Source of the DNA: Syntrophomonadaceae bacterium
GTDB lineage: Bacteria > Bacillota > Syntrophomonadia > Syntrophomonadales > Syntrophomonadaceae
NCBI GenBank assembly: GCA_028692415.1
Contig: JAQUXM010000003.1
Coordinates: 1 to 62,061 of the forward strand
Length of the DNA stretch: 62,061 nt
Reading direction: 5' to 3'
Shown: in pieces, positions 10,575 through 18,752 of the stretch
Numbering within the stretch: the first letter of the stretch is position 1
How the letters are laid out: each line of letters starts with the position of its first letter
Notes under the pieces: model-generated
Databases searched by the model: none
What the model was told of the DNA's origin: nothing
What the model saw: only the letters and a program-made list of their open reading frames with translations
Position numbers and translations under genes: made by a program

Positions 10575-10787
10575 TTTTAATCACAAAATGAGCCAGAGCG
10601 ACCGAATCACCATGGCTCTGAAATTATCTTCTTTGGCATCGCTTGATGATTTCCGGGAACTAATGGAACTTCTTTGCGGTAAAGCTCCGGCCTGTACTCT
10701 TGATGAACAGAATATATTTCTTAAACATGCTTTGAATACCAAAAACTAGCAACAATATAGTAATTCCCAGACCGCAAGATATTGCTG
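10575..10787 (+). pseudogene. Decayed duplicate of the 3' part of an iron alcohol dehydrogenase
   Basis: About 213 bp are nearly identical to 18512-18726, inside the intact Fe-alcohol dehydrogenase gene 8 kb downstream. Matching peptide runs include NHKMSQSDRITMALKLSSLASLDDFRELM and CGKAPACT. The copy lacks a start and the N-terminal two thirds, and AAAAACTAG introduces a stop where the parent reads AAAAACATT. Scattered substitutions show it is not a recent assembly artefact. It is a partial segmental duplication or a recombination scar. Confidence 0.9.
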
Positions 10788-12835: not shown

Positions 12836-14497
12836 ATGGGTTACTTAAAGAGAGTCTTGGTTTGGGCGATGTTATTGGCTTTTATCAATCTTGTAATACC
12901 TGCCGGGACTATGGCACAGTCAGTGAAAACGGGCAATCTTGAAACCGGCACGTATGTTCAGTTAGGTTCCTATAAAGGGAAACCTATTTTATGGCAGGTC
13001 ATTAATAACGACCAGCAGGGCACGGTGTTGTTTGCCCAGAAAATATTAGCTTTCAAATCCTTTGATGCCAAGGGAGATGCCGCCGAGGGAAGAGACAGCA
13101 AATATAACACCAGGGTAAATGAGGGCAGCAACTATTGGGCTAAATCCAATCTGCGGGAATGGTTAAACAGTGCCGATGCCAAAGTGGCTTATTCGCATCA
13201 GAAGCCGGATTCTCAAAACACACTTGATTTTGGAACAGAAGATCTTAGTTATGATAGTGAGCCTGGTTTTTTAAGCAATTTTACAGATGCAGAACGGTCG
13301 GCAATCCAAGCGGTAAAACATAAAACCATGCTGAGTTCCTTTGATTTGCAGGTTAAAGATGGCGGCAGTCATTTGTGGGGGCCTGAAATCAATAATGATA
13401 ATGCCTATTACCAGTGGGTAAGCGATAAGGTATTCCTGCTTTCGCATAATGAATTGATGGAATGGGTTAAAAACCATGGTTTATCAGTTAAAGCACCATG
13501 GTATACCTTTAAGGACAAGTCAGTTCTGGATTCATATTGGCTAAGATGCCCTGACGGTAATTATGCAGCGGCCGTATTTAATGTATCCGGGGAACGAATT
13601 GGCAGCAATACCAACGCATACAGGACGCTGGGGGTGAGACCGGCCTTATATGTAGAACCCGATTTAACCGTGAGCGGAAACGGCACCAAGGATTCACCTT
13701 ATATTATCGCTGCCGGTAACACAGCAATTGCTGATACCGTTCAAGTCAAACCAGCTGCCGCCATTAGCCAGGCCATAACCATCAGTATTAATGGCAAGAA
13801 TTTGCCCAGCGATGTTTCACCTCAGATTATCAACAGCAGAACCATGGTTCCTTTAAGGGCAATATTTGAGGCTTTGGATATCGATGTTGAATGGATTCCC
13901 GCCAGCAAAACGGTTATTGGCACCAAGGATAATACCAGAATTCAGCTGACCATTGACAAAACTACGGCTCTGGTCAACAACCAAGAAGTAATACTTGATG
14001 TCCCTGCTGCTATTGTAGATTCCAGAACTTTGGTTCCGGTCAGATTTATCGGTGAAAGTACCGGCCAGGAAGTCGGCTGGGATGATAAAACCAGAACCGT
14101 TGCGATTACACCTAAAGCAGCTGCCCCGTCTCAAATCGGGTCACAAGGTGATAGTGGAGTTAAAGAATTCTATATTAATCAAACCGGACCCATTTATCTG
14201 ACTGTGGGCCAGTCCAAGCAAATCAGTGCTACAGTTGTTGGAAAGAACCTTAGCTTTGAACAGGAATATCCGCGCTGGGGAACAAGCAACATAAGTATTG
14301 CCAATATTTCAGGTGATGTTGTTTCCGGTTATACAAATACATGGGGCTCCGAAACCCGAAGATTTATTGTCACTGCAGATAAATCCGTTTATGTAAAAGC
14401 GTTAAGCCCGGGCCAGATTACGTTAAGTGCCTCAATAGGCCCCTACACCGCCAATCAATCCCAGACAAGAGATATAATTGTTATTGTTAAGGAATAA
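12836..14497 (+). CDS. Secreted DUF6273 and copper-amine-oxidase-N stalk-domain protein
   Basis: A 553-residue protein with an N-terminal signal peptide (hydrophobic core about residues 8-24, cleavage near TMAQS). Residues ~30-275 resemble DUF6273, with the YVQLGSYKGKPILWQVINND opening and DSYWLRCPDG. Residues ~310-425 contain two copies of the MVPLRAIFEALDIDVEW / LVPVRFIGESTGQEVGW pattern of the copper amine oxidase N-terminal (stalk) domain. An Ig-like C-terminal part follows. These are common cell-surface modules in Firmicutes; no catalytic role is apparent. AAGGAG precedes the start, 57 bp after the phosphatase gene, so the two are likely co-transcribed. Confidence 0.75.
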   Translation: MGYLKRVLVWAMLLAFINLVIPAGTMAQSVKTGNLETGTYVQLGSYKGKPILWQVINNDQQGTVLFAQKILAFKSFDAKGDAAEGRDSKYNTRVNEGSNYWAKSNLREWLNSADAKVAYSHQKPDSQNTLDFGTEDLSYDSEPGFLSNFTDAERSAIQAVKHKTMLSSFDLQVKDGGSHLWGPEINNDNAYYQWVSDKVFLLSHNELMEWVKNHGLSVKAPWYTFKDKSVLDSYWLRCPDGNYAAAVFNVSGERIGSNTNAYRTLGVRPALYVEPDLTVSGNGTKDSPYIIAAGNTAIADTVQVKPAAAISQAITISINGKNLPSDVSPQIINSRTMVPLRAIFEALDIDVEWIPASKTVIGTKDNTRIQLTIDKTTALVNNQEVILDVPAAIVDSRTLVPVRFIGESTGQEVGWDDKTRTVAITPKAAAPSQIGSQGDSGVKEFYINQTGPIYLTVGQSKQISATVVGKNLSFEQEYPRWGTSNISIANISGDVVSGYTNTWGSETRRFIVTADKSVYVKALSPGQITLSASIGPYTANQSQTRDIIVIVKE

Positions 14498-14643
14498 CTC
14501 CTCACCAAAAGACGGTTGGAGAGTCTGCCTGTTTAGTCCTCTTCGAAGGGTATTGTTACACAGTGTTACACAAAGAACGTCCCAGTGTAACAGAGAGGCC
14601 GCGAGCCCTCCCCCGGCCCCTCCGTTAACACAATATAACAATA

Positions 14644-14672
14644 TTTACATAAATAAATAGTTATGGTAATCT
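14644..14672 (+). promoter_or_regulatory. Candidate sigma-A promoter of the RiPP pair
   Basis: TTTACA (14644-14649), 17-bp spacer, TAATCT (14667-14672). It lies about 40 bp upstream of the precursor start and is the only reasonable promoter seen in this gap. Confidence 0.4.
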
Positions 14673-14714
14673 GAATTTATCTCCCGACTTTAATAAATGA
14701 TAGGAGGTGAAAAG

Positions 14715-14846
14715 ATGATTAGCAAGCAAGAACAGCCTGTGAAAACAGTCGGTAAGCAAGAAATTAAAAACAATGTCACCCTTATTCGCCCCAGCACTGC
14801 CAATACTGTCCAAACTAATCAATGGCCCTGCAGATGGTTCCTGTAA
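14715..14846 (+). CDS. Candidate RiPP precursor peptide (43 aa)
   Basis: A 43-codon reading frame with an excellent ribosome-binding site (TAGGAGGTG at 14701-14709). The peptide has a Lys/Gln/Glu-rich, leader-like N-terminal half (MISKQEQPVKTVGKQ) and ends in WPCRWFL, a compact core with two Trp, one Cys and Phe. It lies immediately upstream of, and slightly overlaps, a radical SAM/SPASM gene, the standard layout of a ribosomally made, post-translationally modified peptide. It could be a sactipeptide-like (Cys thioether) or aromatic-crosslink product. I recognise no described family with this core. Translational coupling to the enzyme is likely. Confidence 0.6.
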   Translation: MISKQEQPVKTVGKQEIKNNVTLIRPSTANTVQTNQWPCRWFL

Positions 14847-16198
14847 AGAAATTCGGCGCATTAATTAAAAATTGTCTAACTCCTTTGATGCGGGCCAATA
14901 GTCTGGCAACGGAGGAGTTTGTTTTTGAGCAACTAACTGAGCAGGTGATAATAGTGAAGCTTTCCCGATATATTTTTACCTTTCCTTATGGGAATTCCGA
15001 GATGCTGCTTTTTAATTCCATTAACGGATGTTTAATAAAGATGGATAGTGCTTGTTTTCATAAGGGAAACGTGCTAGAGAGCAATTTAACACCCGCAGAT
15101 ATAAAGGTATTGCACGAAGGTGATTATTTAGCCGATGATGAAATAATCATAAGTCAGCTTGACAGCCTGTACCTCTCCCCACCTGATACTCTGATGTTAA
15201 ACATTGAGGTAACCGGACACTGCAATCTCTCTTGTTCCTATTGTTATCAGCAGGGCTGGCCCCAACGCGGGAGTATCCAAAACGATACTGTCGAAAAAAT
15301 TCTGACCTATATTGAAAAGTGTACGGAGTACTTGGATTACAAGACAATTAAATTAGATTTTATTGGCGGCGAACCCTTTATGGCAGTTGATAAAATGGCC
15401 TGCATTTTTAGTGAAGTGAAAAGCATTTGCCAGTGTAAGGATATCAAATTGGAGGCTCAGGCCGAAAGCAATGGTACGCTTCTGAACCTGCATAACCTTA
15501 AGTGGTTCGAAAACCTCGACCTTTCTGTAACTCTATCCCCTCCGGAAGATCATAATAAATATCGTTCCTATAATAATGGGCAAGGCAGCTATCAGCAGAT
15601 AGTATCCAATTTAACAGACTGCCGGGAGCTATTTGCAAAAAAATCTATTAAGCTCAACTTGAGATACAATGTTCATGCCGCCAACTATCTGCTGTTCCCA
15701 TCTTTCCTTGCTGAAATCAGAAGGCTCGGACTGCCTGTCGCTGCGGTTAAAACTGCCTATACCGCCGAATATGAGTATAATGCTTTCCACAATGGTTTAA
15801 GCCTGGAGCAATTCATGGCCTGGAATTCCTCTGCCGCTATTGACGCACTGCGGGAATATGATTTCCCGGTCCCCTTCTTCCCGTATGCCAGTACCCAACG
15901 CTGCGCAGCATATCAACCCTTCAGCTGCAAAGTCTTTTATGACGGCTCCATCGGCTTGTGCAATGCTTCCCCTTATGGTAGGAGCGAGCTGCACATCGAG
16001 CAGATTGCCACAAATCCAGAGCTTTTAAATGAATATTATAGAGAGGTAAAAAGCTGGACTCCCCTTCAGGACCCGGCTTGCTCCAGTTGTAAAGAATTAT
16101 TGCTATGCGGTGGTAAGACCTTCTGCATGCCAAAGCCTTGCAATTATGCTCTGTATGATTTGGAGCTATTTCTAAAAAATTACATGACGAGTGCATGA
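14822..16198 (+). CDS. Radical SAM/SPASM peptide-maturation enzyme
   Basis: Up to 458 residues. The radical SAM motif CNLSCSYCY (CxxxCxxC, about residue 135) binds the SAM-ligating 4Fe-4S cluster. The C-terminal SPASM region has a full Cys set (FSCKVFYDGSIGLCNA ... CSSCKELLLCGGKTFC ... CNY), which should bind auxiliary clusters. Such proteins install thioether or C-C crosslinks on ribosomal peptides. The ATG at 14822 has no Shine-Dalgarno; a GTG at 14945, just before KLSRYIFTF, may be the true start. No protease or exporter gene adjoins it. The stop at 16198 abuts GACAAGGGGACGG, also found in the palindrome after sigF. Confidence 0.8.
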   Translation: MALQMVPVKKFGALIKNCLTPLMRANSLATEEFVFEQLTEQVIIVKLSRYIFTFPYGNSEMLLFNSINGCLIKMDSACFHKGNVLESNLTPADIKVLHEGDYLADDEIIISQLDSLYLSPPDTLMLNIEVTGHCNLSCSYCYQQGWPQRGSIQNDTVEKILTYIEKCTEYLDYKTIKLDFIGGEPFMAVDKMACIFSEVKSICQCKDIKLEAQAESNGTLLNLHNLKWFENLDLSVTLSPPEDHNKYRSYNNGQGSYQQIVSNLTDCRELFAKKSIKLNLRYNVHAANYLLFPSFLAEIRRLGLPVAAVKTAYTAEYEYNAFHNGLSLEQFMAWNSSAAIDALREYDFPVPFFPYASTQRCAAYQPFSCKVFYDGSIGLCNASPYGRSELHIEQIATNPELLNEYYREVKSWTPLQDPACSSCKELLLCGGKTFCMPKPCNYALYDLELFLKNYMTSA

Positions 16199-17645: not shown

Positions 17646-18752
17646 TTGACGTGGCAGGCACATTTTCCTACCAGAGTCTTTTTTGGACGGGGAGTAATAA
17701 ATGAGCAAGCAGACTTGCTGCATACACTTGGTTCCCGAGCCCTTATCGTAACTGGAAAGGGTGGTTCGGCTATTCGAAATGGAGCCCTGGAGGATGTTTG
17801 CAGGACCTTGGAGAAGACATCGCTTGGCTGGGAACTCTTTAATGAAGTTGAACCCAACCCAACGATTGAAACTGTTCGCAGGGGGGCTGCTTTGGCCCGA
17901 GAGATGAGGGCTGATTTTGTGATTGGAATTGGTGGCGGTTCTCCGATGGATGCTGCCAAAGCAATCGCTATTACTAATCTGGCGGAAGTCTCCGATGAAG
18001 AGTTGTTTAATCTGCAATACGGTGATGTTCTCCCGATTGTTTTAATACCTACTACGGCCGGTACAGGTTCGGAAGTAACCCCGGCATCCATATTGACAAG
18101 CCATAAAGACCAGACCAAAAGAAATATTGGCAGCGCAAAACTCATCCCCAACATTGCTTTTCTCGATTCATCCTATACCAGTGGTCTGCCCTGGCAAATA
18201 ACTGCAGATACCGCAGTAGATGCCTATTCTCATGCAATTGAAAGCTATTTGTCAGCGAAAAACAATGCTATAAGTTCTCTTTTCTCTGAGCAGGCGATGA
18301 CCATTCTGAGCCAAGAGCTTCGAGTAATTGCTCGAAAAAACGATCTTGGTCCTGATAACCGGGATTCTTTACTATATGCCTCCTACCTGGCGGGTGTTGC
18401 CATCAGCTTGACTGGCACCTCAATACCCCATGCACTCGGATATTCTTTAACCTATTACAAAGGGATGCCTCACGGGAGAGCAAACGGAGTTATTATGCCA
18501 TCATGGATGGATTTTAATCACAAAATGAGCCAGAGCGACCGAATCACCATGGCTCTGAAGTTATCTTCTTTGGCATCGCTTGATGATTTTCGGGAACTAA
18601 TGGAACTTCTCTGCGGTAAAGCTCCGGCCTGTACCGTTGATGAACAAAATATATTTTTAAAACATGCTTTAAATACCAAAAACATTAATAACAATATAGT
18701 CATTCCCAGACCGGAAGATATTGCTGAGATCCTTGCCAATTGTTTGAGTTGA
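17646..18752 (+). CDS. Iron-containing (group III) alcohol dehydrogenase
   Basis: A 368-residue protein of the Fe-ADH family. The NAD(P)-binding motif is GIGGGSPMDAAKAIA (about residues 95-109), then PTTAGTGSEVT and metal-ligand segments DAYSHAIESYLS and GTSIPHALGYSLTYYKGMPHG. These enzymes interconvert alcohols and aldehydes with a metal ion. The substrate cannot be read from sequence. Start is a TTG (17646) preceded by CGGAG. Its 3' part (18512-18726) has a decayed copy at 10575-10787. It is followed by a small membrane protein and an EFR1-type ferredoxin gene. Confidence 0.88.
   Translation: MTWQAHFPTRVFFGRGVINEQADLLHTLGSRALIVTGKGGSAIRNGALEDVCRTLEKTSLGWELFNEVEPNPTIETVRRGAALAREMRADFVIGIGGGSPMDAAKAIAITNLAEVSDEELFNLQYGDVLPIVLIPTTAGTGSEVTPASILTSHKDQTKRNIGSAKLIPNIAFLDSSYTSGLPWQITADTAVDAYSHAIESYLSAKNNAISSLFSEQAMTILSQELRVIARKNDLGPDNRDSLLYASYLAGVAISLTGTSIPHALGYSLTYYKGMPHGRANGVIMPSWMDFNHKMSQSDRITMALKLSSLASLDDFRELMELLCGKAPACTVDEQNIFLKHALNTKNINNNIVIPRPEDIAEILANCLS

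Follow-up and report, generated by a model that had tools for sequence, protein, structure and literature searches.

Some of the bonds that are hardest to predict in peptide chemistry are formed by radical SAM maturases. In sactipeptides the cysteine thioether goes to an alpha-carbon, and in ranthipeptides it goes to a beta- or gamma-carbon. In the streptococcal NxxC ranthipeptide NxxcA, Cys23 is joined to Asn20 via the beta-carbon (PMC8326336, PMC13361665). The freyrasin maturase PapB makes Cys thioethers in CX3D motifs; a transposed motif, whose acceptor precedes the cysteine, was no substrate for it (PMC9413430).

Here we analyzed 62,061 nt of a Syntrophomonadaceae bacterium (GCA_028692415.1, contig JAQUXM010000003.1, positions 1 to 62,061, forward strand), which we call the window; its genome is 92% complete. 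The window contains a peptide ORF followed, after a gap of 107 bases, by a radical SAM/SPASM gene on the same strand (Table 1). The peptide, MISKQEQPVKTVGKQEIKNNVTLIRPSTANTVQTNQWPCRWFL, is encoded by a single gene in this genome, the other two frames of the ORF contain stop codons, and a strong ribosome-binding site stands directly before its ATG. The ORF, this site and the enzyme domains bear out the original prediction of a 43-residue peptide ending in WPCRWFL ahead of a radical SAM/SPASM gene. Together, our results indicate that the pair is a radical SAM RiPP-type module of very narrow distribution that falls into no curated maturase family tested, and that its peptides most likely represent a new family, few in number and modified by an enzyme.

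Table 1 Features of the two-gene unit in the window
Feature	Position	Strand	Basis
Putative promoter, TTTACA, 17-nt spacer, TAATCT (weak -10)	14644..14672	+	Same spacing kept in L002
Ribosome-binding site AGGAGGTGAAAAG of peptide gene	14702..14714	+	Sequence; GGAGGTGAAAAGATG identical in L002
Precursor-like peptide, 43 aa	14715..14846	+	Translation; ortholog L002:5764-5898; dN/dS 0.29
Conserved C-terminal TNQxPCRWFL	14814..14843	+	Codon table; peptide alignment, two species
Hairpin AACTCCTTTG...GGAGGAGTT with T-run, attenuator or terminator-like	14878..14926	+	Folding; conservation between window and L002
Shine-Dalgarno AGGTG for GTG 14954	14943..14947	+	Sequence; conserved in L002
Radical SAM/SPASM-type maturase, 414 aa	14954..16198	+	Pfam Radical_SAM 2.5e-10; NCBIfam; alignment; fold match
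N-terminal RRE-like domain, residues 1-80, with three strands ahead of two helices	14954..15193	+	AlphaFold2 pLDDT 85.6; Foldseek PDB

The pair recurs in the same order in a second species of the genus, on contig JAQUBU010000042 (L002) of a Syntrophomonadaceae MAG (G001, 84% complete), which makes the arrangement more than chance. The search for homologous peptides ahead of similar radical SAM genes, suggested with the original prediction, thus found the small ORF at the only other locus, the single one in the species-level genome collection to encode a close relative of the enzyme. This ORF in front of the L002 enzyme gene encodes MLNTKKEQLEKTAVKQETKNSVTLIRPNSANTVQTNQDPCRWFL, 70% identical to the window peptide, with 20 of the last 23 residues kept. 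The peptide is under purifying selection: about 11 of 27 synonymous sites have changed against about 15 of 102 non-synonymous sites (Fisher p = 0.006), and dN/dS is 0.22 over the C-terminal half (residues 21-43). The 21 bases that close the ORF, made up of the codons for PCRWFL and the stop, are identical in the two species, silent sites included.

Cys39, the only cysteine, is invariant, as are Asn35, Gln36 and W41-F42-L43. A core with one Cys and two Trp had been predicted; the cysteine is conserved as expected, but the relative has Asp in place of Trp37. The conserved core therefore holds one Cys (C39) and one Trp (W41), and the invariant end reads TNQxPCRWFL. We propose residues 1-33 as the leader and TNQWPCRWFL (34-43) as the core region, with a boundary placed by inference. 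Since the family is known from two sequences only, the constrained residues are only roughly defined. Across 399 genomes of the phylum, the only match to PCRWFL followed by a stop was the window's own copy; two further matches of that search read PCSWFL and were rejected, one as unrelated in context and the other on its codons. The pattern NQxPCRWF had 15 matches in viral contigs, about the estimated chance number, and none resembled the window precursor. A literature search for PCRW together with RiPP gave no relevant match.

The candidate promoter lies at the start of the block of homology (14635), and the 14635-14714 segment is 76% identical between the window and L002. Our reading of it as a promoter comes from this conservation, and it was not among the sites listed by a consensus promoter scan.

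For the enzyme, GTG 14954 is the preferred start, with 14945 also possible. An earlier start at ATG 14822 was rejected: in L002 the frame is interrupted by an indel, so this upstream extension is non-coding. Between the two species, the enzyme is 75% identical with a dN/dS of 0.16. It contains the radical SAM motif CX3CX2C (C90-NLS-C94-SY-C97) and SPASM-type cysteines at C317, C336, C376, C379, C385, C391 and C396, of which the C317-x13-G331-x4-C336 and C376-x2-C379-x5-C385 segments and C396 are invariant in 14 aligned sequences. Measured against the SPASM pattern CX9-15GX4C...CX2CX5CX3C...C, the CX3C cysteine is displaced to C391 (CX5C), and CGGKTFC replaces the usual CxGGC in both species. 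The full-length AlphaFold2 model has a pLDDT of 80.5, which drops below 50 at residues 389-399, around the displaced SPASM cysteine. Its best fold match is CteB (5WHY, E 8.8e-16, TM about 0.64), followed by ChlB, anSME, SuiB and TigE.

When residues 1-80, modeled alone, were compared with 350,000 PDB chains using Foldseek, the leader-binding protein TbiB1 came first, followed by TigE, CteB, one unrelated chain and the heterocyclase TruD; TigE was also matched to this domain by profile (E 0.02). The fold matches agree, though each is weak (best E 0.013, probability 0.97, none at E <= 0.001), and on this agreement we read the N-terminus of the modeled maturase as a probable RRE-type leader-binding domain. 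The enzyme carries RRE-like, radical SAM and SPASM-like regions, the make-up expected of a RiPP maturase. Together with the conserved pairing and the selection on the peptide, this supports the original prediction of a candidate RiPP precursor and its maturase.

All the top NCBIfam models are RiPP maturases, led by families with Cys-rich or thioether substrates. The maturase meets no NCBIfam maturase cut-off; its best scores were 100.7 bits against a cut-off of 400 for TIGR04280, 89.5 against 525 for TIGR04463, 87.9 against 600 for CefB and 85.2 against 340 for PapB. For comparison, five diverged maturase relatives from other Bacillota reach 190-344 bits with their best model. Relatives beyond the genus are about equally distant, and short Cys-rich ORFs adjoin several of the diverged Bacillota relatives (~25% identical). 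Upstream of the maturase genes at L011 (498-1066) and L009 there are tandem sets of at least three similar Cys-rich precursor-like ORFs, such as DAGCPWLCYTCSDC... The short ORFs upstream of the L016 and L023 maturases encode peptides that begin much like a signal peptide and carry a YEW motif at the C-terminus (DYEWFSYTSNL, DIYEWHMYDEFI); they may represent another type of precursor.

To analyze the distribution of the enzyme, we searched with a two-sequence profile. At E <= 1e-22, the window's genome and G001 alone matched among 63 genomes from the class, and at E <= 1e-30 the window's own genome was the sole match among 399 sampled evenly across the phylum. A single-protein search of 101 relatives at 1e-20 again found the window's genome and G001 only. 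No copy was found in viral contigs, and the best full-length matches in plasmids were only 21-25% identical. Both sampled species of the genus have the enzyme and the peptide, and on present sampling the family appears confined to this genus.

The DNA shared by the two species is the module itself. Window positions 14635-16182 align with L002 5686-7229 at 80% identity; the shared block starts 80 bases 5' of the peptide, stops where the enzyme gene does and contains no third gene, and beyond it identity is 35% and 25%. The small ORF is therefore conserved between flanks that are unrelated, and neither result named beforehand as speaking against the original prediction, a homologous locus lacking the ORF or a peptide no better conserved than the DNA around it, was obtained. 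In G001 the module is preceded by a gene of MocR type and a fragment of one of DUF218 type, and the operon downstream of it encodes a tungstate-type ABC transporter (family assignments by eye). On contig C192 of the window's own genome, the same sigma-54-type regulator is followed after about 70 bases by the transporter, and this homologous region lacks the 4.6 kb that carries the module in G001. The unrelated flanks and the absence of the module from the relative's locus in the window's genome demonstrate that the module moves as a unit. The peptide and the radical SAM gene thus make up a two-gene unit that is both conserved and portable.

Outside the module, the window between 10.3 and 18.66 kb for the most part has no match in the G001 assembly. 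An 8-kb span containing the module is bracketed by a direct repeat of 172 bases (95%; 10575-10746 and 18512-18683), which duplicates the 3' end of the gene for an iron-containing alcohol dehydrogenase (17646-18752). At the right-hand boundary in G001, an ORF like the window's DUF6273 protein is joined to the same dehydrogenase end. Together with the insert missing from C192, these observations mark both loci as variable spots. No transposase was seen among the genes examined at the loci. The DUF6273-type protein of the window (12836-14497) has a copper amine oxidase N-terminal-type domain, and the one of G001 (L054:1870-3156, family judged by eye) lies beside the dehydrogenase gene end.

Between the two genes, a hairpin is followed by the T-run TTTGTTTTT. 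It has a 10-bp stem in the window, and L002 folds likewise (z -1.5 and -2.7 in the two species). The stretch 14877-14920 is the best conserved of all, above either gene: 40 of 44 bases (91%) are kept between the window and L002, in contrast to about 0.87 substitutions per silent site in the enzyme gene. One of the four changes, A-to-G in the 3' arm, turns a U-A pair into U-G and keeps the pairing. Rfam gave nothing above chance in 14480-15000, leaving the hairpin without a family. Its sequence was absent elsewhere in the relatives searched, bar one 21-base match, which lies inside a long, argS-like coding ORF and was taken as chance. The obvious reading is that the hairpin would be an attenuating terminator that keeps the maturase below its precursor. 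Since the loop is conserved as well as the stem, it may also do more than attenuate.

We consider it likely that the locus is a minimal, self-contained RiPP module with a precursor, a leader-binding radical SAM maturase, a thioether at Cys39 and attenuation by the hairpin. In this model, the small gene would encode the precursor, and the hairpin and T-run after its stop codon would probably thin transcription into the maturase gene, so that the substrate outnumbers the enzyme. The RRE-like domain would bind the leader, perhaps at the conserved VTLIRP strand. A 5'-deoxyadenosyl radical made by the radical SAM domain would then take a hydrogen from one residue of the core, to which Cys39 would be joined in a thioether with the help of the SPASM clusters and a loss of 2 Da. 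In line with the original prediction, no adjoining protease or transporter was found by Pfam among the neighboring genes tested, and a search of the window's genome for a C39 peptidase was negative. Leader removal and export would be carried out by proteins encoded elsewhere, and the product may have a signaling or competitive role.

The invariance of Cys39 and the ranking of the maturase families point to this residue as the bond partner, and it is probably thioether-linked to a residue nearby. The likeliest acceptors would be Gln36, three residues before the cysteine like the Asn in NxxC, or Asn35, since both are invariant, lie near the cysteine and resemble Asn20 of NxxcA in their chemistry. 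Residue 37 would then lie inside the ring, which fits its variability. If the bond does run from Cys39 to an upstream residue, its direction should be NxxcB-like, given that PapB refuses this order. An invariant cysteine with Asn35 and Gln36 upstream is compatible with a ranthipeptide, and a single cysteine is compatible with a sactipeptide too. It is tempting to speculate further that an undescribed crosslink, for example between Cys39 and the Gln36 side chain or Cys39 and Arg40 or Trp41, is made by a SPASM domain with a displaced ligand (CGGKTFC), and that the mobile two-gene module yields a genus-specific signal or competition product under a maturase level set by the hairpin; taken jointly, this combination is rather unlikely.

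A carbon-carbon bond would be a different outcome for the same pair. Triceptide motifs begin with an aromatic residue and have two more residues after it, a pattern shared by the invariant W41-F42-L43, and a three-residue cyclophane could form there with Cys39 left unmodified or used later. The maturase does score with cyclophane-type models (YhhB 58.5 bits against a cut-off of 445, FxsB 45.7 against 370, GrrM 39.7 against 310 and DynA 54.4; YhhB, FxsB, GrrM, XyeB and AmcB together span 35-59 bits). However, it lies below the GrrM, FxsB and YhhB cut-offs for triceptide-type membership, the models for Cys-containing substrates score clearly higher, and the single cysteine is invariant. A C-terminal Leu as the linked third residue of a cyclophane would also be unusual, and we regard this outcome as improbable.

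More remote still are two explanations in which the peptide is no substrate. The layout of a short ORF, a terminator-like hairpin and a gene also suits a regulatory leader peptide, on which ribosome pausing near the 3' end governs the hairpin and, through it, how strongly the radical SAM gene is expressed; the identity of the last 21 bases, down to silent sites, and the conservation of the hairpin would agree. Yet the N-terminal half of the peptide is constrained as well (dN/dS 0.30), and folding of the region in both species revealed no clear alternative antiterminator pairing. The nearest families of the enzyme modify adjacently encoded peptides, and its RRE-like domain argues the same way; a precursor followed by an attenuating hairpin accounts for the same layout, which makes the leader peptide a very improbable explanation. 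We give just as little credence to an enzyme that modifies another protein or peptide, next to an unrelated ORF or an accessory small protein. SPASM proteins do modify larger proteins, the structural matches include anSME, and modification of this peptide is so far predicted from sequence. Against this stand the RRE-like domain, the confinement of both genes to one conserved block without a third gene, and a small Cys-containing C-terminus typical of precursors.

Since the maturase lies outside every curated NCBIfam maturase family scored and its substrate is a very small peptide with a single cysteine, one co-expression experiment could reveal the bond. In addition, the locus neatly illustrates how a peptide module of two genes can occupy different genomic positions in related anaerobes. 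Its interest rests on the chemistry that such an experiment could reveal, the displaced SPASM ligand and the conserved hairpin.

Among known systems, CteB, the SCIFF maturase (5WHY/5WGG), is the best overall match in fold, and the N-terminal domain alone also finds CteB and TigE (8VPO), but sequence identity to these two is only 15-18%. SCIFF precursors carry six cysteines. The similarity to PapB (NF047865) extends over the radical SAM core and remains below the family cut-off; the acceptor in PapA comes after the cysteine, whereas no Asp or Glu follows Cys39 here. A literature search for geopeptide with radical SAM gave no match. The Geopeptide, TIGR04463, Clo7bot and CefB maturases (TIGR04280, TIGR04463, TIGR04334, NF038107) share with the window enzyme an N-terminal SxY...LxYNSxTxxL domain and a radical SAM core and SPASM cysteines in the same order, and their relatives are often adjoined by short precursor-like ORFs. 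The window enzyme nevertheless scores 65-101 bits where the cut-offs are 400-600, is ~25% identical to the relatives, has CGGKTFC for CxGGC and is paired with a substrate of one cysteine instead of many. From the NxxC ranthipeptides (NxxcA/NxxcB) the window peptide differs in its motif, QxPC/NQxPC instead of NxxC, and no Rgg-type regulator was seen adjoining. By precursor description it is nonetheless like them, a short peptide with a single cysteine near the C-terminus and an amide residue, Gln36, three positions before it.
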